Positions 1 to 26,384 of a stretch of DNA of 32,176 nucleotides are shown in pieces. Origin of the DNA: an uncultured Thiodictyon sp. (GTDB lineage Bacteria > Pseudomonadota > Gammaproteobacteria > Chromatiales > Chromatiaceae); NCBI RefSeq assembly GCF_903946935.1, contig NZ_CAJAXH010000090.1:1-32176 (forward strand), given 5' to 3'. Numbering within the stretch: position 1 is the stretch's first letter; each line of letters starts with the position of its first letter. The position numbers were made by a program, and so were the translations under genes. The notes under the pieces were generated by a model. The model was given only the letters and a program-made list of their open reading frames with translations. It did not search any database and was not told the DNA's origin.

Positions 1-1
1 C

Positions 2-123
2 CTAGCAGCCTGTCGGACTTGATGGCGTAACCGATTGATTAAACAGGAAAACGACTTTTTGGCGCAAAAGAGGAAACTCTTTGCATTCAATCGGTTGCAT
101 CACTAAGTCCGACAGCCTGCTAG
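2..123 (-). mobile_element. MITE copy 1 (114-bp element between CTAG repeats)
   Basis: Non-autonomous element with no coding capacity. CTAG lies at 2-5 and 120-123, with 114 bp between. The element ends are 15-bp inverted repeats differing at one position (CAGCCTGTCGGACTT and CAGGCTGTCGGACTT). Further inside, a second inverted pair (AACCGATTGA/TCAATCGGTT) makes most of the element one long imperfect palindrome. By eye it is the exact reverse complement of the copies at 2068 and 7040. It lies at the 5' edge of a broken FGE-sulfatase gene, whose reading resumes at the right-hand CTAG. No transposase is present, so any movement would need one supplied in trans. Confidence 0.9.
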
Positions 124-2755
124 TCTGCCTGTTTACCGACGGACTCGGGCTCGCCCGCGCCCTGGACTCAGGCCCCGGCGGCGATGCGGACCAGCGCCGC
201 GCCCTGCGCGAACTGCGCACCTGGCCGCGCCTGTGCCTGGTCGACTTCGCCGCCCCGCAACTCGACCTGCCGACCCTGGCCGAACGCTTGAAGGTCACCC
301 CGGTCGCCCCCGACGCACTCCCCGCCTGGCTCGCCGAGCGCCCGCAGCGCCCGCCACCGGACCCTGCACCGCCGCCCACCCTGCTCGCGCTGCGCCCTGC
401 CCCGGCTGCCGATCACCGGCCCCCAGGCGCGGGCCCTCTACCGGGCCCTGGCCGAACCCCTGGGGCTACCCCACGCCTGGGTCCTGCCCGCGATCGGCGC
501 GGGCCAGCCCGGCACGGACGGCCCGCGCTTCACCGACGGCGAGCGCCAGGCCCTGCTCAAAGACCTGGCCCGCTGGGTCTGGGAGGACGGCTGGCAGCAC
601 CCCGCCGACCGCCAATCCGACGCCTGCCGCTGCCTGGCCACCGGCCTCAAGTACTGGCGTGAGCGCCTGGATGACGGCGCGAAACATCTGCGTGAACTCG
701 CCGCCCAAGACCCCGAGGCCCTGCCCTGGCAGGACGGCCCCGGCGACCAGGCCAAGACCATGGAGGGCCTGCTGCTCGACCTCTGGTGGGGGGACGCAGA
801 AACCGCCGCGGCCGTACGCGAGCTCTACCGCCTCTACCAGCAGGAGGCCCTCAAGCCGCTGATCCGCGAGCGGCTGCGCGACCTCAGCGCCCATGGCTTC
901 CCGGACGACGGGGGCATCTGCCTGCCCTGGAGCTGGCAGGACCTCCCGGAGGCCACCGACGCCGGCGGCACCCCGGAGCCCCACGACACCGCCCGGCGCC
1001 GGCTGCAACTCATGGGCTTCGCCCGCCATGAACCCGGCAGGCGCCGGGCGCTGCGCGGCGAGACCCTGATCGCGCTCGGCGCCGCCGCCGGGCTCGCCCT
1101 GGCCGGGCTGCTCGGGGTGGCGCAGCGGCTCGGCGCCGGGGCCGACGGCGGCCGGACCCACGACGCCGCGGTCTACGAGGGCGCACTGTTCCGCGGTCTG
1201 GTCATGGAGGGCCAGCAGGGCGCGCGCCACTATGCCGCCTCCCGCAAGCTCACCGCGACCACCGCCGCGACCGGGACCGCCCCGCCCCTGCACTGGTGCT
1301 GGAGCGGGCTCGCGGCGGACCAGGCGGCACCCGCCTGCCGGACGCTGTCTGGGAACCCCGCGGACCCCCACCGGGTCAATCCGCAGCCGTTGGGCCAGGG
1401 CGCACTGCTGCGGGCCGGCACCTTGGCCGAGCCCATCCGCGCCTGCGCCCCGGGCTGGCCGGCGCTCTCCGTCGCGGTCATCGCGGGCGAGCGCTGGGAC
1501 TGGCCGACGGATGAAAAGAACAACGAAGCCGCTCGTCGGCTCGCCATCCGCCTGCTCGACCGTGGCACCGCGGACCTGGTGTTCATCGGCCCCGACTGGG
1601 CCGAGCAGGCGCGCCGGCTCGCCGCGGATTGGGCCTTCGCCGCGGACAGCCAGTGGCTCTTTTTCTCGCCGTGGAGCGCGGGCGTCCCGCCCGCGAAGGA
1701 CAGCAAGCCCCAGGTCCCAACCCTCGGCACCCACCGCGCCCTGCTGACCGGCGACCTGGAGGCCATGGCCCGCGCCCTGGACTTCCCCGGCGCCCGCCCC
1801 GCGACCGCGGCCCTGGGGCGCGCCGCCCGGGTCAGCACCCTGGCCGGCAACCCACGACTCTGGGGCGGACCCGAGGTGGAGACCGGCCCCCAGGGCATCC
1901 CCTTTGTCCACATCTGCCCCGGCACCTTCACCATGGGCTCACCGGCCGCCGGGCCGGACACGCCCGATCACCTCAAGCCCTACGACGACGAGCAACCCGC
2001 CCATCCGGTGATCCTGGACGGCTTCTGGATCGCCCGCACCGAGACCACCCAGGCCCAGTATGCCGCCCTAGCAGGCTGTCGGACTTAGTGATGCAACCGA
2101 TTGAATGCAAAGAGTTTCCTCTTTTGCGCCAAAAAGTCGTTTTCCTGTTTAATCAATCGGTTACGCCATCAAGTCCGACAGGCTGCTAGGCGGCGCGCCC
2201 GCCGCCACGACCGCGAATCAACCGGTCGCCAACATGGACTGGACCCGGGCCAGCGACGCCTGCAAGCACCTCGGCGCGGACGCTGGCTTGCCCACCGAGG
2301 CCCAATGGGAATACGCCGCGCGCGGCGGCAGCCAGGACGCCTATCCCTTCCCGTCCGACTTGGCCGAACTGTGCGGCTATGCCAACGGGGCCGGCAATGA
2401 GCGCCCAGAGTGGGCTATCAGGAACAAGGAGTGTTCCGACCCCTTCAAAGATGCTGCCCCGGTCGGCCGCTTCCCGCCCAACTCGCTCGGTCTCTACGAC
2501 ATGCACGGCAACCTCTGGGAGTGGGTACTCGATGCCGGAGGCAACGGAGCGTACGCCGATCGCGGACCCGATCCAACGGCCGAACCGCTGTCCACTGGCC
2601 CCGAATGGAAGACGCGGGTGCTCCGCGGCGGGTCCTTTGGCGACACACCCCTGCGCCTGCGATCTGCCATACGAAACTGGCGCATGCAACAGCTTCAGTA
2701 CCCGATCATCGGATTTCGATGTGTGCGTGGTGCCGGTCGCCAGCCGAATCCTTGA
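120..2755 (+). pseudogene. FGE-sulfatase-domain membrane protein, disrupted
   Basis: This is the remnant of a large protein ending in a formylglycine-generating-enzyme-type (SUMF1/C-lectin fold) domain. The 5' end is cut by MITE copy 1 and the window edge. Coding runs in one frame from 120 (LVCLFTDGLGLAR) to about 330-400, then continues in the next frame (RQALLKDLARWVWEDGWQH, about 550-607). The first frame cannot be swapped earlier, because the second has a stop at 289-291. A hydrophobic segment at about 1063-1130 (TLIALGAAAGLALAGLLG) is a probable membrane anchor. The FGE domain starts near 1890 (GTFTMGS) and is interrupted at 2068 by MITE copy 2. Without one CTAG and the element, the frame reads on through NQPVANMDW, PTEAQWEYAARGG, GNLWEWV and GFRCVRG to a TGA at 2753. 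FGE-like proteins of this kind often have no known substrate. A sequencing error could explain the frameshift but not the insertion. Confidence 0.85.
2068..2189 (+). mobile_element. MITE copy 2, inserted in the FGE-sulfatase gene
   Basis: CTAG at 2068-2071 and 2186-2189 flanks the 114-bp element 2072-2185. It introduces a stop shortly after the FGE residues QAQYAAL. The frame upstream (codons starting at 2068) and the frame downstream (AAT at 2216) differ by 118 bases, which is the element plus one CTAG. Deleting exactly that amount joins them as YAAL-GGAPAATTANQPVAN. This makes CTAG a 4-bp target duplication rather than part of the element. Confidence 0.93.
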
Positions 2756-2769
2756 CCCGCGCTCCTCTG

Positions 2770-2824
2770 GTGACGCCGCTCCAGCGGTGTCACCCCTGTG
2801 TCAGGCGCTGTGCGCCGCGAGCAC
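2770..2824. repeat. Dispersed hairpin repeat, copy 1
   Basis: The arms GTGACGCCGCT (2770-2780) and AGCGGTGTCAC (2783-2793) pair around a 2-nt loop, with one G-T pair. The tail GGCGCTGTGCGCCG follows. A second copy with the same stem and tail lies at 31842-31894. It could act as a bidirectional transcription barrier between the FGE pseudogene and the next gene, but there is no T-run. Confidence 0.6.
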
Positions 2825-2971
2825 CGACGGCCGGAACCGAGCGGCGGCGGGATGCCCCCCCCAACACTGGGACATTCAACGCCGTTAACGCTGGTCTCAG
2901 CGACCATCTGCCTGTCGCCCGAGAGCACTGCCCGGTTGTCCCCCTCACCGATCCGCCCTAAACTCCCCCTC

Positions 2972-3877
2972 ATGCGCCACGCCATCGACCCCAAGATCGA
3001 CTGTGTCTTCAAGGCCCTGCTGGGGTCTGAGGAAAACCGCAACCTGCTGATCCACTTTCTTAACGCCATCCTCGGCGCCGATCTGGTCCGCCCGGTCACG
3101 CAGGTGCAGATCCTCAACCCCTACAACGAACGCGAGTTTCTGACCGACAAACTCAGCATCGTCGACATCAAGGCCCGCGACGACCAGGCCCGGCGCTATC
3201 AGATCGAGATCCAGTTGTTGACCCATGCGGACCTGCTCCCCCGCATCCTGTACACCTGGAACGACCTCTACAACCATCAGCTGGAGAGCGGCCAGGATTA
3301 CGGCACACTCAAACCCGCCTACGCCATCTGGATTTTGGGCGAAAATCTACTGGTGGGGGACCCGTACTATACGCACCGCTACCGGTTGCGCGACGAGCGC
3401 GGCCAGTGCCTACTGAACCACGGCGGGATCTACCTCCTGGAGCCGAGCAAGTTCGCCACCGAGCAGGTTGCGACCGAAGAGCAACGCTGGCTCAAGTTCT
3501 TCAAAGAGGGCGAGCACCTGGATGCCGACCAGCTCCCCAGGTGGATGCAGACCGCAGAAATGAGGCAAGCCATGAATACCCTGAAAGCCTTCTCCGACAA
3601 AGAGCGCGCCTACGACACCTATCAGGCGCGGCAGGATTTTTTGCGGCAACAGCGCTCCATTCAACGCGAGCAGCGCTCGCTCCAGCAGGCGCTCGAGGCG
3701 GAGCGCGCCGCGCGGGAAGCGGAGCGGCAGGCCAAAGAGGCCGAACGGCAGGCCAAAGAAGCCGCATTGCAGGAAAAGGAGGCCGCGTTGCAGGCGAAAG
3801 AAGTCGAGTACCAAGCCAAAGAGGCCGCCCTCGCTGAGGTCGAACGCCTGAGTGCGTTGCTCAAAGCCAAGGAATAA
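2972..3877 (+). CDS. Rpn family PD-(D/E)XK nuclease / putative transposase
   Basis: A 301-residue protein of the Rpn (recombination-promoting nuclease, PDDEXK_2) family. The ATG at 2972 begins MRHAIDPKIDCVFKALLG, the usual start of the family; the open frame continues upstream, but that part has no family similarity. The nuclease core is at about residues 15-150. DKLSIVDIKARDD supplies the Asp, and QIEIQ gives an E-x-Q in place of the usual E-x-K. Residues 200-301 are a charged coiled coil with five consecutive 7-residue repeats (AERQAKE-type). E. coli RpnA raises RecA-independent recombination and cleaves DNA; the role of this paralog is not known. It has no operon partner, sits between two decayed FGE genes, and is convergent with the second one. 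Confidence 0.85.
   Translation: MRHAIDPKIDCVFKALLGSEENRNLLIHFLNAILGADLVRPVTQVQILNPYNEREFLTDKLSIVDIKARDDQARRYQIEIQLLTHADLLPRILYTWNDLYNHQLESGQDYGTLKPAYAIWILGENLLVGDPYYTHRYRLRDERGQCLLNHGGIYLLEPSKFATEQVATEEQRWLKFFKEGEHLDADQLPRWMQTAEMRQAMNTLKAFSDKERAYDTYQARQDFLRQQRSIQREQRSLQQALEAERAAREAERQAKEAERQAKEAALQEKEAALQAKEVEYQAKEAALAEVERLSALLKAKE
3719..3823 (+). repeat. Five tandem 21-bp repeats in the Rpn coiled coil
   Basis: Five in-frame 21-bp units encode AERQAKE, AERQAKE, AALQEKE, AALQAKE and VEYQAKE. The first two units are nearly identical in DNA, as expected for slippage-driven expansion of a coiled coil. Confidence 0.8.
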
Positions 3878-3931
3878 GGGGTTGGCATAAATGCCCGGGC
3901 TCAATTGACCCTGAGCGCTTTCCCGCGACAA

Positions 3932-4954
3932 TCAAGCCACAGGCGGGCGACCGGCACCACGCACACAGCGGAACCCAATGGCCTCGTGCGGGTAGTCGGG
4001 CGTGAACCTGCCCCGGACCGCGGAGCGCAGGATCCGGGGCTCGTCGATGAACGAACCGCCGCGCACCACCCGCCTCCCATCGCGGACCGCCCCCCGCGGA
4101 TCGTCCACTGCCTGCGGGTCATAGGGGCCATACCCATCCCAACACCACTCCCAGCAATTGCCGGCGAGGTCATAGAGGCCCCAGGGGTTGGGGTCTTTGG
4201 TGGCGACTGGATGGGGCTGGCCACCGGAGTTGCCGGAAAACCAGGCATAGCGCCCGGCCTGGCCCTGGTCCGCACCCCAGAACCAGGGGGTCTCGGTGCC
4301 GGCGCGGCAGGCGTATTCCCACTCCGCCTCGGTCGGCAGTCGGTAGCCGTCGGCCGCCCAGTCGCAGTCCCAGCCGGAGGCGGTCCGGCGATAGCAGGAC
4401 GGGCGCCCGCTGGACAGAGACAGGGCGTTGCAGAAACGCACCGCGTCTTCCCAGGTGACGTGGGTGGCGGGCAGGGTGTCGTCAATGCTGTCATACCTCC
4501 ATTCCTTTGGGCGGTGCTTCGTCAGGGAGTAGTAGAAGTCGCGCGTCACCGGGGTCGTCGCCATGGCGAAGGGGCTTAGGCGCACCTCCCGGCTGGGGGA
4601 CTCATAGTCATAAAGTTACGGGTCCAGGGCCTTGTCCGAACCCATCCGGAAGCTGCCGCCGGGCAGTTCCACCATGGCGATTAGGGGGTCCGGTGCCTTG
4701 AGCCGCGCCGGGGTCGGCAGGTCAACCTCCCCCGCCAACCGCACCCGCCTCCCCTGCCACCGCACGACCGGCGGGAGCAGCAGCAGGACCAGGGCGGTGG
4801 CCGCCGGGCTGCGCAAGGCGAGTGCGCCGAGGGCGAGCGTGGGCAGCAGGCCCACAGCGACCAGCAGGGCCGTCGGCCAGCGGTCCAGCACACTGGGAGA
4901 CAGGCGCGGGACCAGCCGGCGGGCGGCGGCGATTTGGGCGATAAGGCGTGACAT
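3932..4954 (-). pseudogene. FGE-sulfatase-domain membrane protein split by an in-frame TAA
   Basis: The likely ATG at 4954 begins MSRLIAQIAAARRLV. Two hydrophobic segments follow at about residues 30-75 (ALLVAVGLLPTLALGALAL and ALVLLLLPPVV), then the start of an FGE domain, GGSFRMGSDKALDP. The next codon is TAA (plus-strand 4616-4618). Reading in the same frame continues LYDYESPSREVRLSPF and gives the rest of a normal FGE-sulfatase domain: TPVTRDFY, RLPTEAEWEYACRAG, GNCWEWCWDGYG, VVRGGSF and GFRCVRGAG, ending at 3932. One substitution (such as CAA to TAA) would therefore explain the break, and the 217 codons downstream show no further lesion. The downstream part has in-frame start codons and could in principle be made as a soluble FGE domain. 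This gene is paralogous to the broken gene at 120-2755 and faces the Rpn gene. Confidence 0.82.
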
Positions 4955-5022
4955 GGCCCAATGATAGCGCGGCTTCTGGCCGATCCCCAGAGGAGCCGGG
5001 GCGTCCCGCCCCGGCGCGGCTT

Positions 5023-5180
5023 CTGGCTCCAACGCTCCTGCGTTAGGAGCCAGTGCGGGCGCTCTGCGTCCAGCGCCAGGACCGGACGCGGAGCGCCCGC
5101 GCGGCATTCCCACGCGGGAGCGTGGGAACGAGAAGAGCGCCCGCACGGCATTCCCCTGAGTCCGCGTGGGAGCGAGAAGC
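5023..5180. repeat. Palindromic and 44-bp direct repeats upstream of yqgE
   Basis: The 294-bp gap between the FGE pseudogene and yqgE holds no gene. It contains a stem CTGGCTCC...AGGAGCCAG (5023-5053), a perfect 9-bp stem TTCCCACGC/GCGTGGGAA with a 4-nt loop (5107-5128), and a direct repeat of about 44 bp. The repeat units start GAGCGCCCGC at 5091 and 5135; the second copy has lost the perfect palindrome. This looks like a cluster of REP-type dispersed repeats. Confidence 0.65.
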
Positions 5181-5248
5181 GCGCGGGCGGGACGCCCTCG
5201 CCCCTTTTCCGACTTGCCTCCCCCCCCGCCGAACGGGATACTAGTACC

Positions 5249-5812
5249 ATGGGCTTCAGCACTTCACTTACGAACCACTTCCTGATCGCGATGCCGGGTC
5301 TTGCCGACCCCAACTTCGCGCATACGGTCGCCTATGTCTGCGAACACTCGGACCAGGGGGCCATGGGAATTATCATCAACCGACCGCTGGAGGTGACCCT
5401 GGGCGAACTGCTCGACCAGTTGGACATCCACAGCGGCCTCGCGGCCGTGCGCAAGACACCGATCTATCAGGGCGGGCCGCTGCAGACCGACCGCGGCTTT
5501 GTGCTGCATACCGCCGGCCCGGCCTTCGACTCCACCCTCAACATCAACGATGAGATGAGCGTGACCACCTCGCGCGACATCCTGGAGGCCATCGCCGAGG
5601 GCGAGGGCCCGCTCCAGTGCATGATCGCACTGGGTTATGCCGGTTGGGGCAGCGGGCAACTGGAGCAGGAACTGAGCGCCAACGCCTGGTTGAGCGGCCC
5701 GACCGACGGACACATCATCTTTCGGCTGGAGGCGCCGTCGCGCTGGCTGGCCGCCGCCAAGCTGCTGGGGATCGACATGAACCTGGTGAGCGGCGAGGCC
5801 GGACATGCTTGA
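5249..5812 (+). CDS. yqgE: YqgE/AlgH family protein
   Basis: A 187-residue cytoplasmic protein of the YqgE/AlgH family (DUF179), close to the usual family length. The ATG at 5249 gives the typical start (GFSTSLTNHFLIAMPGL). Conserved family stretches are visible: VAYVCEHSDQGAMGIIINRP near residue 27, the YQGGPLQTDRGFVLHT region near residue 72, and LGYAGWGSGQLEQEL near residue 130. The biochemical role is unknown; the family is nearly always next to ruvX in gammaproteobacteria, as here. The open frame extends far upstream, but only into the repeat cluster. A 219-bp gap with an inverted-repeat element separates it from ruvX, so the usual tight coupling seems to be broken. Confidence 0.93.
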   Translation: MGFSTSLTNHFLIAMPGLADPNFAHTVAYVCEHSDQGAMGIIINRPLEVTLGELLDQLDIHSGLAAVRKTPIYQGGPLQTDRGFVLHTAGPAFDSTLNINDEMSVTTSRDILEAIAEGEGPLQCMIALGYAGWGSGQLEQELSANAWLSGPTDGHIIFRLEAPSRWLAAAKLLGIDMNLVSGEAGHA

Positions 5813-5828
5813 TCCAGTTAAGAATGTC

Positions 5829-6018
5829 GTCCGCAAATGAACGCGAATGAACGCCAATCAGCCGATAGCCAACGGCGACTAACCGTACACTGGAGCCAGG
5901 AGGCACGAACAATGCATCAAGGGATCAACGACTTGAGCAACGGGGCGTCACTGAGGGCGATGCTTGCCCCCGCCCTACACTCTCTTAAATTTGCGTTTAT
6001 TCGCGTTTATTTGCGGAC
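5829..6018. repeat. 190-bp element with 26-bp inverted arms, between yqgE and ruvX
   Basis: The left arm 5829-5854 and right arm 5993-6018 are inverted copies differing at only 2 of 26 positions (GTCCGCAAATGAACGCGAAT... against ...ATTCGCGTTTATTTGCGGAC). The 138-bp centre has no convincing gene. Each arm itself contains a GAACGC-type repeat in tandem. The layout fits a non-autonomous mobile element or a pair of inverted dispersed repeats. The right arm ends 13 bp before the ruvX start codon. Confidence 0.75.
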
Positions 6019-6031
6019 AAATCTTCTTTAG

Positions 6032-6463
6032 ATGCCCACCCTGCTCGGATTCGACTTCGGCCTGCGCAAGATCGGGGTGGCGGTCGGCCAGACCGTCACC
6101 GGCTCCGCCACGGCACTGACGACCCTGCGCAGTCGCGGGGAGCGCCCGGACTGGGCGGGGATCGAGGCCCTGGTGCGCGAATGGCAGCCAGCCGCGGCCG
6201 TCGTCGGGCTGCCATTCAACATGGACGACACGGAGGAGGCCTGGTCCCCCCGCATCCATCGCTTCGCCCGCCAACTCGAGGGGCGCTTTCGGCTGCCGGT
6301 CCATCTGGTCGATGAACGACTGACCTCAATCGAGGCCCGTCGTCAATTGGCCGAACGCCCCGGCGCCAAACACTCGAGAGGCGACAATCACCACGCGGTC
6401 GACGCCCTGGCGGCGGCCCTGATCCTGGAAACCTGGCTCAGTGAGCAACCACGCACCCCTTAA
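6032..6463 (+). CDS. ruvX: Putative pre-16S rRNA nuclease / Holliday junction resolvase YqgF
   Basis: A 143-residue RNase H-fold protein of the RuvX/YqgF family, the usual length. The first acidic residue is in [17 protein letters not shown] (D8). The second acidic motif is [12 protein letters not shown], and the C-terminal Asp is in [13 protein letters not shown]. YqgF takes part in maturation of the 16S rRNA 5' end and, by homology, in branched-DNA processing. It follows yqgE as in most gammaproteobacteria and overlaps pyrR by 23 bp. No good Shine-Dalgarno is visible before the ATG, because the inverted-repeat arm occupies that position. Confidence 0.93.
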
Positions 6464-7022
6464 TCCGCTGCCCGTCGGGCAGACCCTGTGGCTGGACGCC
6501 GACGCCATCGACACGGCCATCGCGGCGATGGCCGCCGAACTGCGCACCCTGATCGCGGAGCGCGCCATCGCCGCCCCACTGATGGTCGGCATCCACACCG
6601 GCGGGGTCTGGGTCGCCGAGCGGCTGCACGCCGCGCTCGGCATCGTTGACCCCCTGGGCCATCTGGATATCTCATTCTACCGGGACGATTTCAGCCGTAT
6701 CGGTCTGCACCCCCAGGTGCGCCCATCGCACCTGCCGGCGGCGGTGGACGGTCGCCATGTCATCCTGGTGGACGACGTGCTCCAGACCGGGCGCACCATC
6801 CGCGCCGCGCTCAATGTGCTGTTCGACTATGGGCGGCCCAAGTCGGTGATCCTCGCCGCCCTGGCCGAGCGCGGCGGGCGCCAATTGCCGATCGAGCCCA
6901 ATGTGGTCGGCCTGCACGCCCGACTGGCACCGGGCGAACAGCTCAAGCTCACCGGACCCGTCCCCCTGGAGTTGGTCCGCGGCCTGGCCCCGGCCGCGCA
7001 CCCGCCGGCCGAGCCGGCCTGA
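6441..7022 (+). CDS. pyrR: Bifunctional pyr operon regulator / uracil phosphoribosyltransferase
   Basis: A 193-residue PRTase-fold protein. The PRPP-binding motif [19 protein letters not shown] is near residue 110. The N-terminal family signature [15 protein letters not shown] and the flexible-loop sequence ISFYRDDF are also present. PyrR converts uracil and PRPP to UMP; in Gram-positive bacteria it also binds pyr mRNA, whereas in gammaproteobacteria such as Pseudomonas the regulatory role is less certain. The start is a GTG at 6441 inside the end of ruvX, a 23-bp overlap that implies translational coupling. The proline- and alanine-rich tail ([10 protein letters not shown]) makes it slightly longer than usual. 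The path to pyrB is interrupted by MITE copy 3. Confidence 0.92.
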
Positions 7023-7039
7023 CAGGATATGGCGATCAC

Positions 7040-7161
7040 CTAGCAGGCTGTCGGACTTAGTGATGCAACCGATTGAATGCAAAGAGTTTCCTCTTTTGCG
7101 CCAAAAAGTCGTTTTCCTGTTTAATCAATCGGTTACGCCATCAAGTCCGACAGGCTGCTAG
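7040..7161 (+). mobile_element. MITE copy 3, between pyrR and pyrB
   Basis: CTAG at 7040-7043 and 7158-7161 flanks the same 114-bp element, identical by eye to copy 2 in sequence and orientation. It begins 18 bp after the pyrR stop and ends 23 bp before the pyrB start, so it separates two genes that are normally co-transcribed. A transcript through it could fold into a long imperfect hairpin. Confidence 0.93.
7096..7125 (+). promoter_or_regulatory. Possible outward promoter inside MITE copy 3
   Basis: TTGCGC (7096-7101) and TTTAAT (7120-7125) resemble sigma70 -35 and -10 boxes (4/6 and 5/6 matches) with an 18-bp spacer, pointing towards pyrB. The element is much more A+T-rich than its surroundings, so a chance match is possible. 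Confidence 0.3.
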
Positions 7162-7184
7162 ACTCCACCTATCCCACGGACCCC

Positions 7185-8180
7185 ATGAACACCGCCAACA
7201 TCCAACTGGACGACGCCGGCCATCTCAAGCACCTGCTGACCGTCGAGGGCCTGAGCCGCGAGCTCCTCACCGCCATCCTGGACCAGGCCGAGGGGTTCAC
7301 CGGCGTCACCCAGCAGGCCGTTAAGAAGGTCCCGCTGTGCCGCGGCAAGGTCATCGCCAACCTCTTCTTCGAGACCAGCACCCGCACCCGCACCACCTTT
7401 GAGCTGGCGGCCAAACGGCTGTCGGCCGACGTGCTCAATCTCAACATCGCCGCCTCCTCCACCTCCAAGGGCGAGACGCTGCTCGATACACTGCATAACT
7501 TGGAGGCCATGCATGTCGACATGTTCGTGGTGCGCCATGCCGCCAGCGGGGCCGCCCATTTCATCGCCGAGCAGGCCGCGCCCCATGTGAGCGTGATCAA
7601 CGCCGGGGACGGGCGCCACGCCCACCCCACCCAGGGCCTGCTGGATATGTTCACCATCCGCCGCCACAAGGGCGGTTTTGAGCACCTGCGCGTGGCCATC
7701 GTTGGGGACATCCTGCACTCGCGGGTCGCCCGCTCCCAGATCGCCGCCCTGAACACCCTGGGCGCGGCGGAGATCCGGGTCATCGGCCCACGCACCCTGA
7801 TCCCGGATGCCGCCGAGTCCTTAGGGGTGCGGGTCTGCCATGACCTGCGCGAAGGGGTGCGGGATGCGGACGTGGTGATCATGCTGCGGCTCCAACGCGA
7901 ACGCATGAGCGGTGCCTTGCTGCCCAGCGCGCACGAGTATTACCAGCTCTATGGGCTGACCGAGGAACGGCTCTCCACCGCCCGGCCGGACGCCATCGTC
8001 ATGCACCCGGGCCCGATCAATCGCGGGGTGGAGATGGATTCACAGGTGGCGGACGGGCCGCGCTCGGTCATCCTGGAGCAGGTGAGCAACGGTATTGCGG
8101 TGCGGATGGCGGTGATCGCCATGTGTATCGGCACCCAGAATCTGCGCGGCCCTGGTGGCGAGGGGACCTACGATGCATGA
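7185..8180 (+). CDS. pyrB: Aspartate carbamoyltransferase, catalytic subunit
   Basis: Condenses carbamoyl phosphate with aspartate in the second step of UMP synthesis. The protein has 331 residues. The carbamoyl-phosphate loop is [10 protein letters not shown] (residues 61-70). [12 protein letters not shown] near residue 92 is the 80s-type loop, [10 protein letters not shown] is near residue 148, and the MHPGPINRG motif lies near residue 275. The form with a following inactive dihydroorotase-like gene is the Pseudomonas-type (PyrB-PyrC') dodecamer rather than the E. coli PyrB-PyrI type; no pyrI is seen. The ATG at 7185 has only a weak purine-rich site upstream, and the MITE has replaced the sequence just beyond it. 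The end overlaps the pyrC' start by 8 bp. Confidence 0.96.
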
Positions 8181-9519
8181 GGGCATGAAAATCAGCATCC
8201 GCAACGGCCGGCTCATCGACCCGGCCAGCGGCATCGACCGGGAGGCGGACCTGCACTGCGCCGAGGGCAAGGTGGTGGCCATCGGCGCCGCGCCGGCCGG
8301 CTTCCAACCGGATCGCACGCTCGACGCCCGGGGGCTGGTGGTCTGCCCTGGCCTGGTGGACCTCTCGGCCCGGCTGCGCGAGCCCGGCGACGAGCAGAAG
8401 GCTACCATCGCCAGCGAGACCCGCGCCGCCGCTGCCGCCGGCATCACCACCCTGTGCTGCCCGCCGGACACCAACCCGATCATCGACACCCCGGCGGTCG
8501 CCCAGCTCGTCCATCAGATCGCGGCCCGCCATGGCCTGGCCCGGGTGCTGCCCGCCGGGGCCATCACGCGGGGACTGGATGGCAGCCAGATCACCGAGAT
8601 GGCGGCCCTAAAGGAGGCCGGCTGCCCGGTCCTGAGCCAGGGCGACCGGCCCATCCGCAGCGCCCAGGTGCTGCTGCGCGCGCTGGAGTATGCCTCCACC
8701 TTTAGCCTCACGCTGTTTCTGCAACCGCTGGATGCGGATCTCAGCGAGGGCGGTTGCGCCCACCAGGGCGCGGTCTCGACCCGCCTGGGGCTGCCCGGCA
8801 TCCCGGAGGCGGCCGAGACCGTGGCGGTCGCCCGCGCCCTGGCACTGGCCGAGCAGACCGGGGCGCGCATCCATTTCCGCGGGCTCTCCACCGCCCGCGG
8901 GGCGGAGTTGCTGGTGGAGGCGCGCCGCCGCAGCATCCTCGCCAGCGGGGATTGCGCCATCCATCAGTTGTTCCTCACCGAGGACGACCTGCACGGATTC
9001 AATTCAAACTGTCACCTGCTGCCGCCGCTGCGCACCGCCGCCGACCGGCAATCGCTGCGCATGGCGGTCGCCGAGGGCGCCATCCAGGCGCTGTGCTCCG
9101 ACCACCAGCCACACGACGCAGACGCCAAGCAGGCCCCCTTCCCCGAGACCATCCCGGGCATCTCCGCCCTGGAGACCCTGCTGCCGCTGGCGCTGCGCCT
9201 GGTCGCCGAGGGCGTGCTGGACCTGCCCACCGCCATCGCCCGGCTCACCACCGGACCCGCCGAGGTCTTAGGCTCCGGCTCCGGCTCCGGCTTCGGCCGC
9301 CTCAAGCCGGGGCGCAGCGCCGACGTCTGTGTCTTCGACCCGGCGGAGACCTGGGTCCTGAGCCCAGAGACGCTGGTCAGCCATGGTCACAACACACCCT
9401 TCCTGGGCATGGAGTTCCAGGGGCGGGTGCGCTGGACGCTGCTGGGCGGGCGGATGGTCTTTGAGCGATCCGGAACCACCGGCGCGGCGGCCGCACCGCC
9501 CCGTCATCAATCGAACTGA
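8173..9519 (+). CDS. pyrC': Non-catalytic dihydroorotase-like subunit (PyrC')
   Basis: A 448-residue amidohydrolase-fold protein related to dihydroorotase. The metal-binding HxH motif is lost: [13 protein letters not shown] has Ser65 and Arg67 where active enzymes have histidines. The sequence CSDHQPHD near residue 315 keeps the later metal-site pattern. In Pseudomonas, PyrC' has no dihydroorotase activity and is needed to assemble active aspartate carbamoyltransferase; the same job is inferred here, with a true pyrC elsewhere. The ATG at 8173 has GAGGGG upstream and overlaps pyrB; GTG 8155 and ATG 8185 are alternatives. A Gly-Ser run (GSGSGSGF, about 9271-9294) is coded by a 6-bp repeat. The 3' end overlaps the converging ATPase gene by 13 bp. 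Confidence 0.93.
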
Positions 9520-11773: not shown

Positions 11774-11891
11774 TAAGGATCGACCTTGGGTCGAGGGTGA
11801 GATTCTACACCGGATGGGGGGTCCGGCGCCCAAACCGTCGCATCAAGTCCCCGTGGGAGCGGCGTGACTTTCACCCCAGAAAGAGCAGTTG

Positions 11892-12021
11892 TCACGCCAA
11901 GGCGCCAAGCTCGCCAAGGCTTTGCAGTACGTTATCGGCGTTGCGCCAGTCACCCGGAGGGCGATTTGGATAGTGGATCGACCCGATTGTATTTCTTGGC
12001 GAGCTTGGCGCCTTGGCGTGA
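11892..12021. repeat. Palindromic element, short form (130 bp)
   Basis: Perfect 27-bp inverted arms at 11892-11918 and 11995-12021 (TCACGCCAAGGCGCCAAGCT... and its complement) enclose 76 bp. The same arms and a related centre occur at 24121-24319. Each arm is itself built from CGCC/CCAAG repeats. The element lies between tRNA-Leu and the 3' end of the STAND gene, in a 282-bp stretch with no other gene. Confidence 0.85.
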
Positions 12022-12055
12022 GCAATTCCCGGGTTTAGGCTCAGGGTAACGACGA

Positions 12056-15000
12056 TCAAGAGCGCCGCGAGTTAGCGCCGCGTGGCATCGCGGCCGGAGG
12101 CCGCTCATACCGGGGCTTGGGTTTGCCGGCCGTTGCCGCCGGTTTCTCGCCGGCCTTCAGCAGCGCCTCGATCCGTTTCATGTCGGGGTGGTCGATGCCG
12201 CGTTGGCGCAGCTTGGCGAAGTCGTCGAGGACCGCCGCCGCGAAGGTCCCGTCGTTCACCTGGTCATGCGCGTGTACCCGATAGATGGCCTGGGCCTGGT
12301 CGAACTGGCCGGAGAGCAGGTAGCCATGGGCCTGGTTGGTGGCCCACACAATCTGGCTCGGATCGAGCGCCAGGGCCTCCTCTGCGGCGGCGATGGCTTC
12401 TCGGTATTGGCGGTCGAAAAGCAGGACGAATGACCGATTGCCGAGGACCAGGACGAGCAATGCCCGGCTGGTGTCGTCCGGTTGGCGCTGGTAGAGGTCA
12501 CGCGCAATCGTCAGTGCCTCAGTGTTCGTCGCAAGCGCGGCCTTGGTGTCGCCCACCTGGTCCTCGAGGTCATACAGCGCCAAGAGCGATTGCGCCAGGG
12601 CGGGCGGATCCCCGATCTTGCGCCACTGTGCCACGGATTCGCGTTGATAACGCAGCGCCGCCTGGGAATCGCCCTGAACGGAAGCAACCAACACCAAATC
12701 GCCATAAAGCGAATCGAGAAAATCTAGCGCCTCGGCGGCCTGGGTCTGGGCAAAGAGCGGCAGGGCGATGGCCAATGCCTGTTCATACGACGCGCGCGCC
12801 CCAACGAGGTCTCCCTGCGCTCGCCGCACCATACCGATCCCCCTGTGGCTCACCGCGAGGCCGCTTTGCCACCGGGCATTGGCCGGGTTCTGTCGGGCCA
12901 GCCGCTCGCGGATCAGCAGACTCGCCTCAAAGGCCGTCAGTGCCCCGGCCAGGTCGTCTTGGAACCGGCGCAGGTAGCCGATCTTCTCGTGGCTCACCGA
13001 AAGGTCGTGTTGCCACCCGGCATTGGCCGGGTCTTGCCGCGCCTGCCGCTCGGTGATCGCCAGAGCCTCCTCATAGGCCGTCCGTGCCCCGGCGAGGTCA
13101 CCCTGGGCCTGGCGCACGTCGCCGATATCCTCGTGGCTAACCGCGAGGTCGCGTTGCCACTCGGCATTGGCCGGGTCCTGCCGCGCCAGCCGCTCACGGA
13201 TCGACAGACTCGCCTCATAGGCCGTCAGCGCTCCGACTAGATCTCCCTGGGCTTGGCGCACCTCGCCAATGTTCCGGTGGCTGAACGCGAGGTCGCGTTG
13301 CCACTTGGCATTGGCCAGGTCCTGACGCGCCAGCCGCTCAGAGATCGACAGGCTCGCCTCATAGGCCGCCAGCGCCCCGGCCAGGTTTCCCTGGGCCTGA
13401 AGCACCTCGCCGATCCGCTCGTGGTTGACCGCGAGCTCGCGTTGCCACTCGGCATTGGCCGGGTCCAGCCGCGCCAGCCGATCAATGATCGCAAATCCAG
13501 CCTCATGGGCCGTCAATGCACCTGCTAAATCTCCCTTGGCCCGGCGCACATCGCCGACGTCGTCGTGACTAATCGAGAGGGCGCGTTGCCACTCGGCATT
13601 GTCCGGGTCCTGCCGCGCCAGCCGCTCGCGGATCGCGAGACTCGCCTCATAGGCCGTCAGTGTCCCAGCCTGGTCCCCCTCGGCCTGGCGCACGCTGCCG
13701 ATCTTCTCGTGGCTGTTCGCGAGGTCACTTTGCCACCCGGCATTGTCCGGGTCCTGCCGCGCCAGCCGCTCGCGGATCGCCAGACTCGCCTCATAGGCCG
13801 TCAGTTCCCCAGCCAGGTCCCCCTGGGCCTCGCACACGCCGCCGATCTTCTCGTGGCTGAGCCCGAGGTCGCATTGCCACCAGGCATTGGCCGGGTCCTG
13901 CCGCGCCAGCCGCTCAAAGATCGCCAGACCCGCCTGATAGGCCGTCAGTGCCCCGGCCAGGTCCCCCTGGGCCCGGCGCACGGCACCGACATTGTGGAGT
14001 GCCACCCCCCGCTTGCGCTCACTGTCCGCCGACACCCGATCGGCCGGTAGCTTCTCGAAGTACTCCGCCGCCTTGCGCGACACCCCGTCGAGTAGCTCCA
14101 ACCGGCCGATGGGTTCGAGCTTGTCGCGCAGGTCAAATAGCATGTAGTTGATCAGGTCCTCCGCCTGTCCCCGCGCCAGGGTCGCCACGCGCTCGGCCCG
14201 GTAGTCCCACCAGGCCGCCCCGAGCGCGGTGAGGGTCAACACCAGCAGCGCGGCCACCGAGCCACCCTTGACCAGCCGCTCGCGCCGCTCCCGGCGGGCG
14301 GCGGCGCGGTAGAAGCGCCCTTGCAGCGCGGTCAGTTCGGTGCCGTGGCGCTGCGCATAGCGGCGCAGCAGGTCCAAGTCCGGCCGGCGCCACAGAAGCC
14401 CCGCCGCCTCGCGCTGCCCTTCCCAGTGCTTGGCCGCCGCCTCCAGCCGGGCGGCCAGGCGCAGGTCGTCGCGGTCGGCGGCCAGCCAGTCGCGCAGGGT
14501 GCCCCAGTGGGCGATGAGCGCATCGTGGGTGATCTCGACCTGCTCGCGGCCGTCGTCGCCCCGCCAGACGGTGAGGAAGCGGGCATCCGCGGCGGCAAAG
14601 CGGCGCAGCGTAGCGAGCAGGTCGGCCCGCGTCTCGTCCTCGGCCAAGAGGTCATCCAGCGCGACCCGTCGGCGGGTGTCGGGCCCGCCCTCGCCGAGTT
14701 GTACCAGCCGCAGCAGGCAGCGGCGGGCCACCGCCTGGGCGGCCGGGGTGAGTGCGGTATAGACCTGCTGGGCGCGCCCGGCCAAGGCCCCGCCCACCCC
14801 GCCGCAGGCGTTCAGGGTCTGAGCGGCCGATTGGCCGGTCTGGAGCCCGCGCCAGACCTCAGTGAGTGCATATTGCAGCAGCGGCAGGGCACCCGGTCGG
14901 TCGGCGCTCTGCTCCAGCAGCAGTTGCACCGCCGCCGCGTCCAGCGGTTGGCCGGCCAGGCGCGCCGGCTCGGCGATGGCCAGGCGCAGCCCGGCCTCGT

Positions 15001-16072
15001 CCAGCACCGGGACGATGCGCTCATGACCGGTGAGCAGGGTGTTGAAGGCGGGGAAACGCTGGGTCTCGCCCAGAAAGTCGCTGCGCAGGGTCAGCAGCAG
15101 ATAGAGGTGGGGCGTGGGGTCATTGACGGCGGCCAGCAGGTTATCGAGAAAGCGGCCCTGCTCGGCGGCGTCCGGGCACAGGCTGAACAGTTCTTCGGCC
15201 TGGTCCAACAGCAGCACCAGCGGCACCCGGTCGGGTCCCCACAGCAGGGTGGCGATGCGGCTCAAGCCCTGGCCGTCGGCCGCCAGCAGGGCGCGGAATT
15301 CCTCGGCCTTGCCGGCCGGGGCCGGGTCGTCGGGCAGTGCATGGCGCGCCAGGGCATTGGCCAGGGCGGCGAGCGGGGCATGGGTGGGGGTGAGGGTCAG
15401 CAGCCGGCAGGGCATCCCCGCTTTGATCCGCGGCAGCAGCCCGGCGCGCGCCACCGAGGATTTGCCGGAACCCGACGGGCCGAGCAGGGCCAGGAAGCGC
15501 GGCGGACCGGCCATGAGTGCCTGGAAGTCCGGCCACAGGTCCTGTCCCACCAGCGCCTCGCGCCCGAAGAAGCGCTCCGCGTCCTTTTCCTGGAAGCTGT
15601 CCAGGCCGAGATAGGGGTTGGGGATGACGGGCGGCGGCGCGGCGCCGGGGGCAACGGGGCCGAGCGCCTCGCCGAAGCCGTGCCTGTAGTCGATGATGTA
15701 CCAGCCGACTACCGCCGCCAGGGCGACGAAGGCCTGTCGGACCTCCTGGTCGGCGATCGGCTTGTTGGGGTGGGCGCCCAGATTGCCGAGCTGGTTCACA
15801 TAGCCCATGGCCGCCAGCACGGCATCGGGCACCAGGTCGCGAAAGCGCGGGAGCAAGCCGGCCAGCGGCTCGGTACCGCGCTCGCGCTTCAATTCGCGCT
15901 CGCACAGCTCGATGACGATGACCTCCAAGGCCCGGCGGGCACGGATCAGGGCCGTGACCAGGTCCAGGCTGTTGAGTGCGGCGTTGAGTTCCTCCTCCAG
16001 GGCCACCGCCCGACCGCGCATCCGGTCGTAATAGGCGTGCAGTTCCTGTCGTTCGCGTGGCCAGTCGGTCAT
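12056..16072 (-). CDS. HEPN/DUF4145-like, STAND NTPase, TM, TPR protein
   Basis: A 1338-residue multidomain protein. Residues 1-130 resemble DUF4145 (HEPN-type fold): RARRALEVIVIELCERE, then QLGNLGAHPNK, where the usual R-x-GN-xx-H has Gln for Arg, so RNase activity is doubtful. PYLGLDSFQEKDAERFFGRE (153-172) opens an nSTAND1-type NTPase module with Walker A GPSGSGKSS (198-206) and Walker B LVLLLDQAEELF (285-296). A winged-helix-like part follows to about 560. LLVLTLTALGAAWWDY near 610-625 is a single membrane helix. Nine TPR-like units of about 48 residues (687-1119) follow, then more TPR-like helices and a basic tail. STAND proteins act as ligand-triggered switches, some in antiphage defence. 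Here the NTPase would be cytoplasmic and the TPRs probably on the other side of the membrane, or the helix may be buried. The ATG at 16072 has GGAG 10 bp upstream. It is apparently monocistronic. Confidence 0.85.
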   Translation of the reverse strand: MTDWPRERQELHAYYDRMRGRAVALEEELNAALNSLDLVTALIRARRALEVIVIELCERELKRERGTEPLAGLLPRFRDLVPDAVLAAMGYVNQLGNLGAHPNKPIADQEVRQAFVALAAVVGWYIIDYRHGFGEALGPVAPGAAPPPVIPNPYLGLDSFQEKDAERFFGREALVGQDLWPDFQALMAGPPRFLALLGPSGSGKSSVARAGLLPRIKAGMPCRLLTLTPTHAPLAALANALARHALPDDPAPAGKAEEFRALLAADGQGLSRIATLLWGPDRVPLVLLLDQAEELFSLCPDAAEQGRFLDNLLAAVNDPTPHLYLLLTLRSDFLGETQRFPAFNTLLTGHERIVPVLDEAGLRLAIAEPARLAGQPLDAAAVQLLLEQSADRPGALPLLQYALTEVWRGLQTGQSAAQTLNACGGVGGALAGRAQQVYTALTPAAQAVARRCLLRLVQLGEGGPDTRRRVALDDLLAEDETRADLLATLRRFAAADARFLTVWRGDDGREQVEITHDALIAHWGTLRDWLAADRDDLRLAARLEAAAKHWEGQREAAGLLWRRPDLDLLRRYAQRHGTELTALQGRFYRAAARRERRERLVKGGSVAALLVLTLTALGAAWWDYRAERVATLARGQAEDLINYMLFDLRDKLEPIGRLELLDGVSRKAAEYFEKLPADRVSADSERKRGVALHNVGAVRRAQGDLAGALTAYQAGLAIFERLARQDPANAWWQCDLGLSHEKIGGVCEAQGDLAGELTAYEASLAIRERLARQDPDNAGWQSDLANSHEKIGSVRQAEGDQAGTLTAYEASLAIRERLARQDPDNAEWQRALSISHDDVGDVRRAKGDLAGALTAHEAGFAIIDRLARLDPANAEWQRELAVNHERIGEVLQAQGNLAGALAAYEASLSISERLARQDLANAKWQRDLAFSHRNIGEVRQAQGDLVGALTAYEASLSIRERLARQDPANAEWQRDLAVSHEDIGDVRQAQGDLAGARTAYEEALAITERQARQDPANAGWQHDLSVSHEKIGYLRRFQDDLAGALTAFEASLLIRERLARQNPANARWQSGLAVSHRGIGMVRRAQGDLVGARASYEQALAIALPLFAQTQAAEALDFLDSLYGDLVLVASVQGDSQAALRYQRESVAQWRKIGDPPALAQSLLALYDLEDQVGDTKAALATNTEALTIARDLYQRQPDDTSRALLVLVLGNRSFVLLFDRQYREAIAAAEEALALDPSQIVWATNQAHGYLLSGQFDQAQAIYRVHAHDQVNDGTFAAAVLDDFAKLRQRGIDHPDMKRIEALLKAGEKPAATAGKPKPRYERPPAAMPRGANSRRS
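12720..14011 (-). repeat. Nine tandem 144-bp coding repeats (TPR units)
   Basis: About nine 144-bp units in the STAND gene, each coding a variant of SHEKIGxVRQAQGDLAGAL followed by TAYEASLAIRERLARQDPAN. Landmarks such as GTTGCCACTCGGCATTGGCC recur every 144 bp. Units 2-3 and 6-7 are the most alike. The boundaries are approximate. Confidence 0.8.
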
Positions 16073-24090: not shown

Positions 24091-24120
24091 GTCCAAGGAG
24101 CCACCGGGAAAAAGAATTGG

Positions 24121-24319
24121 TCACGCCAAGGCGCCAAGCTCGCCAAGTTTTTCAGTGTGTCATTAGCGCTGTGCCGGCTAAAGCCTCGACCTCCAGTTAC
24201 GGAGTGATCCCCGTTGGCCGGGACGATGATCAAGGCCGCTGTGCCATTCACCCGGCGAATGATCTGGATACTTCATCTGCCCTCTTGTATTTCTTGGCGA
24301 GCTTGGCGCCTTGGCGTGA
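24121..24319. repeat. Palindromic element, long form (199 bp)
   Basis: The same perfect 27-bp arms as at 11892 occur at 24121-24147 and 24293-24319, and the flanking parts of the centre (TTGTATTT before the right arm, and a CACCCGG-containing stretch) are shared. This copy has about 69 bp more in the centre. The extra part is bounded by direct repeats GCTGTGCC at 24168-24175 and 24238-24245. It fills the gap between two converging genes. Confidence 0.85.
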
Positions 24320-24332
24320 GCCGTTCTTGGCT

Positions 24333-26384
24333 CTAGGACAAGGCGCTTGCCGCTGCGGGATCGGCGATCGGCGCCACGATGGTCCGATTGCGCCCCGCCG
24401 CCTTAGCGGCATAGAGCGCCCGGTCGGCCGCGCCGAGGAGTCCCCCGGGCTCGGCGGCGTGGGCCGGCCAGGCGGCCACGCCCGCCGACAGGGTCCTGCG
24501 CACTTCCCCCGTGTCGGCTTGAATAAGCAACTCGGAGAATGCCTTGCGCCAGGACTCCGCGTGCGCGTAAGCAACCTCCAGGGCCGCCCCGGGCAGGACC
24601 ACGGTGAACTCCTCCCCACCAAAGCGACAGGCGATGTCGCTGGCACGGGTGGTGGAGGTCAGGATCCGCGCCAAGGCCGTCAAGACCTGATCGCCGGCCT
24701 GGTGCCCCAGGGTATCGTTGACCTCCTTGAACCGATCGATATCGATCATCACCAGGCTCAGGGGTTGATCACGCGATTGAGTCAATTCACGCTGCAGGAC
24801 CAGCTCGAGATAGCGGCGATTGTAGAGACCGGTCAGCGGGTCACGCCTGGCCTGTTCGCGCAGGTCCTCCTGCAGACCCTCGATCTGCCTGATCTGGGTG
24901 TGCAGGGCCTGATTCGCCGCCTCCAGGTCGGCGCGGATCCGCTCGGCCTCGGTAATGTCCTGCGCCAGTGACAGCACGGCGCCGGGCTCGCCATGACCAT
25001 CGCGCTGCAGGACATTGCTCCAGCGGCACAGAATGGTCCGGCCGTCACGGGTCAGGTTGCGATTGACACCGCCTACCAGGCCGCCCTCCCACGCCTGCTC
25101 CATCACCTTGGCGACATAGTCCAGGTCGGCCGCCGGCACCATCCGCTCCAGCCCGACCCCCAACATCTCGATCCGCGGCCACCCGAAGATCCGCTCCGCC
25201 GCACGATTCCAGTCGATGACGCGATGCTCGCGATCGAACAGGATGAGTGCCAACGGGGCGGTCTCATAGATGAGTTGATAGTGCTGCTGACTGGCCTTGA
25301 GTGACCACTCGGTCTGCCGGCGTCGCTCCATTTCGAGCGACAAGCGGCGATCAATGCGCAGAATATAGAGCGAGATCGACCCGGCTGACAGGGTGAGCAG
25401 CAGCGCCCCGCCCACCCACCAATAGACCCACGGCGGGATGTGCAGGCGCTGCGGATCGTACAGGAAGCCGGTGAGCGCAATGCCGGCCGGCAGCATGCCC
25501 TGCTCGGCATAGACGTCCGCGATATGGCGCCAACGCCCGGGATACATATAGCCGACGGCGATCAGTTCATTGCGCAGCAGTGGGCGCATCTGCTCATATT
25601 CGTAGAGCAACTGCTCACGGGTCTTGCGCTGGGAATAGCGCTGAATGATGAGGTCGACGATCTCGGTCGGATGCCCCATGGCATAGACCCAGCCGCGCAG
25701 ACTGGCCTCGCGGAAGGCCTCCACCACCGCCGGGTGGGTGCGCAGATAGGACTCGGTGGTAAACAGATTGTCGCCGTAGAAGTCGATCCCCCCGGAACGC
25801 GGGGTGAAGAGCGAAAAATTGACCCCGGCCTGCGCGAACACGAAGGGCTCGTCGGTAATATAAACCGACTGGGCATCGACCGTCCCGGCGGACAACTCGG
25901 CAGTCCCGAAGCTGTGGGGGACGAGGTTGAGACTGCCGCGGGGGATGCCCTCGCGCTCCAGATAGGCAAATAACTCGGCCGAGTTGTCCTCGATCATCAG
26001 ACGCCGGCCGGCGACCTCGTGGATATTGCGGATGCCCGATCGCTCCAGGGCCATCAATGCCAGCGGTGAATGCTGAAAAATCACGGCCAGCACGACCACC
26101 GGCTGACCGCGGGCGCGGTGCAGGAGCAGATCGGAGGTGCCGACGCCGAACTCGGCCTGGCCGTTCAACACGGTCGCCACCGGGTCCTGCCCGGGGCGCG
26201 CCTCCAGCAAGCTGACCTCCAGCCCCGCCTCGCGATAAAAGCCCTGTGCCTGCGCGGCATAGTACCCGGCAAACTGAAACTGGTGAGTCCACTTGAGCTG
26301 CAACCGCACCGGCTGCAACGCCTGGGCACCCCAGGCACTCACGGAGCAGCACAATGACAACAGGAGAAGACTCAAGCGCATCAT
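24333..26384 (-). CDS. NMT1/THI5-like sensor, PAS, GGDEF diguanylate cyclase
   Basis: A 683-residue membrane-bound signalling protein. A signal peptide (LSLLLLSLCCSVSAWG) is followed by a periplasmic NMT1/THI5-type ligand-binding domain (about 25-310): LQLKWTHQFQFAGYYAAQAQGFY and EFGVGTSDLLLHRARG. WVYWWVGGALLLTLSAGSI (about 328-346) is the transmembrane helix. A PAS domain (about 370-490, FDREHRVIDWNRAAERIFGW) and a short coiled coil lead to a GGDEF domain (about 515-670). The active site is GGEEF (589-593), a functional variant of GGDEF, and RASD five residues before it is an inhibitory I-site. It should make cyclic di-GMP in response to a periplasmic ligand; THI5-like domains bind pyrimidine or amine-type molecules, but the ligand here is unknown. 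No EAL domain is present. The start could be either of two adjacent ATGs (26384, 26381). Confidence 0.93.
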   Translation of the reverse strand: MMRLSLLLLSLCCSVSAWGAQALQPVRLQLKWTHQFQFAGYYAAQAQGFYREAGLEVSLLEARPGQDPVATVLNGQAEFGVGTSDLLLHRARGQPVVVLAVIFQHSPLALMALERSGIRNIHEVAGRRLMIEDNSAELFAYLEREGIPRGSLNLVPHSFGTAELSAGTVDAQSVYITDEPFVFAQAGVNFSLFTPRSGGIDFYGDNLFTTESYLRTHPAVVEAFREASLRGWVYAMGHPTEIVDLIIQRYSQRKTREQLLYEYEQMRPLLRNELIAVGYMYPGRWRHIADVYAEQGMLPAGIALTGFLYDPQRLHIPPWVYWWVGGALLLTLSAGSISLYILRIDRRLSLEMERRRQTEWSLKASQQHYQLIYETAPLALILFDREHRVIDWNRAAERIFGWPRIEMLGVGLERMVPAADLDYVAKVMEQAWEGGLVGGVNRNLTRDGRTILCRWSNVLQRDGHGEPGAVLSLAQDITEAERIRADLEAANQALHTQIRQIEGLQEDLREQARRDPLTGLYNRRYLELVLQRELTQSRDQPLSLVMIDIDRFKEVNDTLGHQAGDQVLTALARILTSTTRASDIACRFGGEEFTVVLPGAALEVAYAHAESWRKAFSELLIQADTGEVRRTLSAGVAAWPAHAAEPGGLLGAADRALYAAKAAGRNRTIVAPIADPAAASALS

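Follow-up and report, generated by a model that had tools for sequence, protein, structure and literature searches.

A high-copy MITE at CTAG sites in an uncultured Thiodictyon genome and its candidate IS1182-family partner

What kind of repeated element interrupts an FGE-sulfatase-domain gene between two CTAGs, and which transposase might have moved it? The question is raised by a stretch of 32,176 nucleotides from an uncultured Thiodictyon sp., analysed as a whole and referred to below as the window, which is contig C90 of a draft genome of 6.0 Mb in 321 contigs. Three copies of the element (n = 3), 100% identical, lie in the window, and each consists of CTAG, 114 bp and CTAG, i.e., 122 bp of non-coding DNA in total, with copy 1 inverted relative to copies 2 and 3. 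The palindrome that the element forms is imperfect, and its middle is asymmetric; arms of 37–38 bp, 84% complementary, flank 48 bp and contain terminal inverted repeats of 15 bp; an earlier note on this DNA, which described three identical 114-bp palindromic copies between CTAGs, was therefore right except that the palindrome is not perfect. A 17-base end motif is found six times in the window when up to three mismatches are allowed, compared with a mean of 0.06 in shuffles, and the hairpin predicted from either strand is far more stable than that of shuffled sequences (z −8.3 and −11.2). It is considered highly probable that the element is a MITE that inserts at CTAG, duplicates it and is linked to the IS1182 family, by which it would have been moved in trans. 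The features concerned are listed below in window coordinates.

2 to 123, minus strand: MITE copy 1 with both CTAGs, one base from the contig start, in the upstream part of the FGE-sulfatase gene; assigned by identity with copies 2 and 3, its other flank lying on contig C139, collinear with the relative G007
124 to 2067, plus strand: segment from copy 1 to copy 2 that belongs to the broken FGE-sulfatase-domain gene (PF03781; homologue in G007)
2068 to 2189, plus strand: MITE copy 2 and its two CTAGs, which split the FGE-sulfatase domain, as judged from the joined frame
2068 to 2071, no strand: left CTAG of the 4-bp target duplication of copy 2, read from the empty sites of other copies; GTGG in G007
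2072 to 2086, plus strand: left terminal inverted repeat CAGGCTGTCGGACTT, one base off the IS end CAGCCTGTCGGACTT
2171 to 2185, minus strand: right terminal inverted repeat, minus-strand reading CAGCCTGTCGGACTT, the same as both IS ends on contig C24
2186 to 2189, no strand: right CTAG of the same duplication, on the same basis; GTGG in G007
2190 to 2755, plus strand: remainder of the FGE-sulfatase gene after copy 2 (PF03781; joined frame)
6441 to 7022, plus strand: pyrR, on the upstream side of copy 3 (201.9 bits with the NCBIfam PyrR model, cut-off 140)
7040 to 7161, plus strand: MITE copy 3 and its two CTAGs, in the pyrR-pyrB spacer; TTAG and no element in the relative G003
7185 to 8180, plus strand: pyrB, on the downstream side of copy 3 (412.5 bits with the NCBIfam aspartate carbamoyltransferase model, cut-off 263)

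The whole draft genome was searched for copies, as the earlier note had suggested, by using a pattern with up to three mismatches that would have tolerated other letters at the CTAG positions. As a result, 67 copies were found in differing flanks (47 identical, 19 with one change and one with two), and flanking DNA was retrieved for every copy, in some cases cut short by a contig end. CTAG stands at both ends in 67/67, so that copies without flanking CTAG, which would have spoken against the proposed target, were not seen, and all changes are internal: C52A in 10 copies (and in one more together with a second change), G80T in six, G40A in two and A44C in one. Most of these differences define sub-variants common to several copies, at positions 52, 80 and 40, which suggests that several source copies were probably active. 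The near-identity of the copies agrees with the recent spread proposed from the window alone, and dozens of copies seem to have spread recently, in a burst from few source copies; alternatively, such near-identity could stem from gene conversion. The genome also contains more distant relatives of the element: contig C6 has one, and C17 has two that belong to a second subfamily. MITE and IS copies stand at several contig ends of the draft genome, and some of its genes are broken; for example, C139 and C73 share 18 bases and the MITE and then diverge, and C90 begins there too, a pattern that suggests assembly branching or recombination at MITEs.

In the FGE-sulfatase gene, Pfam PF03781 is matched with 28.9 bits near the end of the open reading frame at 760–2088 and with 104.8 bits on that at 2234–2755. 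Removing 118 bp at copy 2 lengthens the frame from 442 to 625 amino acids, and the joined frame of 625 amino acids aligns along its length, with gaps, to a stop-free stretch of 988 amino acids in G007, which runs open at the edge of the retrieved DNA. The claim that removal of the element exactly restores the host gene thus holds for the local frame, but not for the gene as a whole, since copy 1 also lies within it and the frame changes upstream: the stop-free segment in the FGE-domain frame begins only at 292, whereas position arithmetic shows that the frame which comes in from C139 across copy 1 coincides with the open reading frame at 81–662, and this is not the FGE-domain frame. As read from the assembly, the gene was hit twice by the MITE, and its frame changes at least once between 292 and 662; it has the appearance of a pseudogene, provided that the change of frame did not arise from a sequencing error. 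Next to the broken gene, an Rpn-type PD-(D/E)XK nuclease or putative transposase gene with many homologues in the genus occupies 2798–3877. A link between the FGE gene and a diversity-generating retroelement was sought by comparing 1801–5000 of the window with two reverse transcriptase loci, and no repeat beyond the MITE was found. Elsewhere in the window, a protein of 1,338 amino acids of the nSTAND1-TPR type is encoded on the minus strand at 12056–16072 (Pfam nSTAND1, 333.8 bits), with eight copies of DNA repeats at 144-bp spacing in its gene.

The target of insertion can be read from element-free sites in relatives, a comparison that the earlier note had likewise suggested and that came out in its favour. 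For the window copies, the pyrR-pyrB region is collinear in G003 and reads TTAG without the element; the FGE homologue in G007 reads GTGG, again without it, at copy 2, and CTGG at copy 1, where C139 continues the same gene (letters read off alignments). In addition, 62 joined sites were built from the genome, and the first 39 and part of the 40th were compared with six genus members; 15 of these submitted sites had a junction-spanning match among the matches listed and were retrieved and aligned, and the remaining submitted sites had no spanning match among those listed for the six genomes. Selection by junction-spanning match biases the 15 sites toward collinear ones, and some of them lie in multicopy repeats and are not all strict orthologues. 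The best relative reads CTAG at eight of the 15 sites, one substitution at five, two substitutions at one and a one-base gap at one; at site L014, all four aligned relatives read GTAG or ATAG, and at site L003 (the copy at 1501) the relative is without eight bases of the left flank. In L003, at 781, one MITE sits in sequence that is highly repeated in the genus, with dozens of matches in G003, G005 and G007.

Together with the pyrB site and the two FGE sites, 18 comparisons are available, and CTAG-element-CTAG is replaced in the relatives by four bases at 17 of them and by three bases at one. With flank identities of 75–94%, about 8.5 intact CTAGs would be expected at the 15 sites (sum of identity to the fourth power) if every site had once been CTAG, and the eight seen fit a 4-bp target duplication. 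An exact CTAG is missing in the relative at the other seven sites and at all three in the window (TTAG, GTGG and CTGG), which divergence explains, without this proving it. The proposed CTAG target with its 4-bp duplication is thereby upheld by 18 element-free sites, and CTAG is, on these alignments, the target duplication of the element. An FGE homologue lacking the CTAG junction, which the earlier note had named as evidence against its reading, does exist in G007, but GTGG and CTGG are of equal length to CTAG and eight of the 15 other sites are exact.

The same comparisons bear on a mechanism like that of IS1272, in which an IS1182-family transposase would replace a target stem-loop without any duplication and CTAG would belong to the element. 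IS1272 is an IS1182-family member reported, in the part of PMC5678879 that describes it, to replace inverted repeats without target duplication, and CTAG is itself a palindrome and invariant in the 67 copies. Nevertheless, this mechanism is regarded as extremely improbable: no relative carries the element or any further target sequence that was lost next to it here in the 18 comparisons (spanning matches favour collinear sites), the relative has CTAG at eight of the 15 sites, and palindromic flanks are not in excess, since the first six flanking positions form 1.74 pairs on average at 66 sites and 1.61 at 95 control CTAGs (permutation p 0.39). Replacement of inverted repeats was rejected, as loss of a target stem-loop was not found at the compared sites.

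As for the transposase, the earlier note had inferred movement in trans, had suggested a search for a full IS with the ends of the element and had pointed to the IS5 and IS701 families. Such an IS is present on contig C24: an element of 1,565 bp has CTAGCAGCCTGTCGGACTT at both ends, the right end being the last base of the contig, and matches the MITE ends, CTAG included, at 19/19 and 18/19 bases. The difference of one base at one MITE end counts against the link; the IS ends read CAGCCTG, as does one MITE end, instead of the CAGGCTG given earlier. The IS encodes an intact transposase frame of 459 amino acids that scores 359.4 bits with the NCBIfam IS1182 model NF033551 (cut-off 270), and D146, D341 and E414, invariant in 12/12 aligned homologues, are read as an intact DDE triad. 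Further left ends of the IS were found on C58, C232 and C254 and right ends on C11, C83, C146 and C193, all at contig borders, which indicates at least four IS copies. An intact candidate for action in trans is thus present in the same genome, but as a member of the IS1182 family: IS5 models reach at best 75.8 bits against cut-offs of 110–140 (140 for the best model), and no IS701 or IS630 model is among the matches at E ≤ 0.001 in a library that may hold no IS701 model.

Descent of the MITE from this IS was also considered from its interior. Between the MITE middle and the right end of the C24 IS, similarity is weak: the score of 27 (15.6 on average in shuffles) is reached by 4/500 shuffles, and that of 23 for the other strand by 10/500; under a second scoring, several other ISs have 22–24 against 21 for the C24 IS, so the interior match singles out no parent. 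Parentage by interior similarity was therefore set aside, the likeness beyond the 19-bp ends being weak and non-specific.

Relatives of the IS extend the pairing of ends and target to other genomes. A genome collection was scanned for relatives of the transposase, which are encoded in 281 stretches; the best 80 of these were kept, several from the same genomes, and 67 of these 80 loci have paired inverted ends, and CTAG is found on both sides in 66/66 relatives with both flanks readable (flanks, not empty sites), although the end pattern held no letter of CTAG. Using an end pattern that included the last two letters of CTAG, CTAG was found on both sides in 64 of 65 paired loci, again of 80. 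The hosts of the best 80, going by organism names, are presumably in most cases Gammaproteobacteria, Betaproteobacteria or Alphaproteobacteria, so that IS1182 relatives with the same ends between CTAGs occur across a range of Proteobacteria.

It follows that movement of the MITE by a CTAG-using transposase of another family, i.e., IS5, IS701 or IS630, is very improbable. CTAG targets are on record elsewhere: MITEPsy1, of 100 nt, uses CTAG or YTAA with a 4-nt duplication and, in the portion of PMC3189936 that describes it, is given the family 'IS5?' and linked in the text to ISPsy2, and ISPsy32 has the target CTAG according to PMC8027508 and is listed as IS630 in PMC6053426. Nor is CTAG universal within IS1182, the target of ISPsy36 being given as GGCC (an entry of PMC8027508). 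However, the coding element with the ends found here is IS1182 among the first 100 of 156 end matches, at the 67 loci named above IS1182 transposase genes are enclosed by paired ends of this kind, and the IS5, IS701 and IS630 models behave as described for the C24 transposase.

Matches to the MITE occur in 7 of 55 genomes, its own included, all of the same genus, and in 17 of 210 genomes of the order, again with its own, at E ≤ 0.001, many of them over the shared end only. Full-length copies were found once in G005 (96%), at least 12 times in G006 (74–75%) and in G204 and G119 (69–70%); the MITE family looks old on these identities, and the burst of 67 copies appears private to this lineage, within the reach of genome searches that scored a capped number of candidates in each genome. 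G007 has neither a MITE match nor a close transposase, G003 has an intact transposase of 95% and one partial MITE match only, and in G001 a partial MITE match is accompanied only by remnants of the transposase; co-occurrence of MITE and transposase across the genus is thus loose, which counts against the pairing. In G002, a genus member of 3.0 Mb in about 670 contigs, the transposase has 115 matches; the matches listed are partial and often stand at the end of a contig, a picture that would suit an expansion of the IS in this genome. G004 has a longer mini-element at L036 1291–1525, which measures 235 bp with both CTAGs, has the same ends and contains an inner hairpin repeat.

Most scored copies of the MITE appear to lie outside genes. 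By a codon score, which recognised 206 of 218 test points in its own training genes, 7 of 59 scorable copies are inside genes, compared with 13 of 73 uninserted CTAGs (Fisher p 0.47; controls drawn from the retrieved loci and no random genome sample) and with 400 of 703 random points taken from these loci. CTAG is rare in this GC-rich genome; the window has 14, of which six are MITE ends, where base composition would predict 97. Because uninserted, rare CTAGs have a similar non-coding share, the placement probably needs no explanation beyond CTAG itself; avoidance of genes beyond this effect was rejected on the same counts. A base next to the target is also enriched, C adjoining CTAG at 72 of 134 element ends against 41 of 146 control ends (Fisher p 1.8e-5), a difference found post hoc. 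A second dispersed repeat with inverted ends and the core GCCAAGGCGCCAAGCTCGCCAAG lies at 11879–12039 and 24108–24337 of the window; the core is within 90 bp of 5 of 67 MITE copies, and five copies are at a GCTCTTT-CTAG edge.

On contig C319, a MITE (L260 2095–2216) splits a Cas6-RT-Cas1 gene (L260 292–3508) between its reverse transcriptase and Cas1 parts, the separate pieces of which match Pfam RVT_1, Cas6 and Cas1; translation of flanks points to NACHT-like NTPases, TPR proteins and a response regulator as further genes hit. At copy 3, which ends 23 bases before the start of pyrB, the position of the element means that a strong hairpin now lies in the pyrR-pyrB spacer. It is conceivable, yet doubtful, that an IS1182 subgroup in Proteobacteria has specialised on the rare, mostly extragenic CTAG as a safe haven, and that MITE hairpins settle in operon leaders (pyrR-pyrB) and accessory defence-like genes (NACHT-like NTPases, RT-Cas1 and FGE) as switches or quick inactivators.

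The stable hairpin, the mostly non-coding positions and the near-identical copies would equally suit a functional host repeat, such as a REP- or BIME-like sequence, a terminator or a regulatory RNA, kept by selection or gene conversion. Such a function is nonetheless judged highly unlikely, as it is at odds with the 4-bp duplications and empty sites, with the disruption of genes by the element (the FGE gene twice, the RT-Cas1 gene once) and with ends common to MITE and IS; moreover, the non-coding share is about that of uninserted CTAGs, and no Rfam match was obtained at the gathering threshold in window 1–9000. The element is accordingly best treated as a MITE of the IS1182 type, for which the following course is proposed. 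The DDE transposase of the IS1182 element would bind the ends common to IS and MITE and would cut out (or copy) the MITE in trans; a 4-bp staggered cut would then be made at CTAG, and joining of the MITE ends to it would leave CTAG duplicated. A young, high-copy MITE with an intact candidate transposase and empty sites would offer a convenient natural system for the study of IS1182 transposition.

Both IS1182-linked MITEs and CTAG-inserting MITEs are already in print, so the kind of element is known; a description of this particular element was not found in searches of an open-access library of papers. The MITEs linked to ISMac2 in Methanosarcina acetivorans are likewise paired with an IS1182-family IS, and one row of a table in PMC3852290 gives 160 bp, 14 copies and the figures 26 and 4, taken to be the lengths of the inverted and the direct repeats, and a second row 169 bp, seven copies and the figures 25 and 0, read as no direct repeat; they differ in their archaeal host, greater length and lower copy numbers. 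MITEPsy1 of Pseudomonas syringae pv. phaseolicola is alike in size, target and duplication, and it alters the reading frames of genes and has been demonstrated to be mobile by trapping; it differs in its GGAAGGTCTGAAAAAGCC-like ends, its six copies and the link to ISPsy2 and family 'IS5?' drawn by its authors (the MITEPsy1 passages of PMC3189936). The MITE-like arrays of Thiohalocapsa PB-PSB1, another purple sulfur bacterium, are similar in having hairpin repeats that match IS ends at FGE/CLec-fold loci, whereas they are tandem repeats at diversity-generating retroelement loci, a likeness drawn by description from parts of PMC10907252.

Among autonomous elements, ISPse1 of Paracoccus is an IS1182 member of 1653 bp, with the figures 16/16 and 4 in its entry in PMC3281130 read as inverted and direct repeat lengths; it differs in being an autonomous IS. 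Similarly, ISPsy36 of P. syringae pv. actinidiae is an IS1182 member with a palindromic target of four letters, but GGCC and not CTAG (entries of PMC8027508 and PMC6053426). IS1272 of Staphylococcus has the same transposase family as the partner found here and terminal repeats of about 16 bp, according to the section of PMC5678879 on this element; unlike the replacement of target inverted repeats without duplication reported there, the Thiodictyon MITE gives a simple 4-bp duplication of CTAG.
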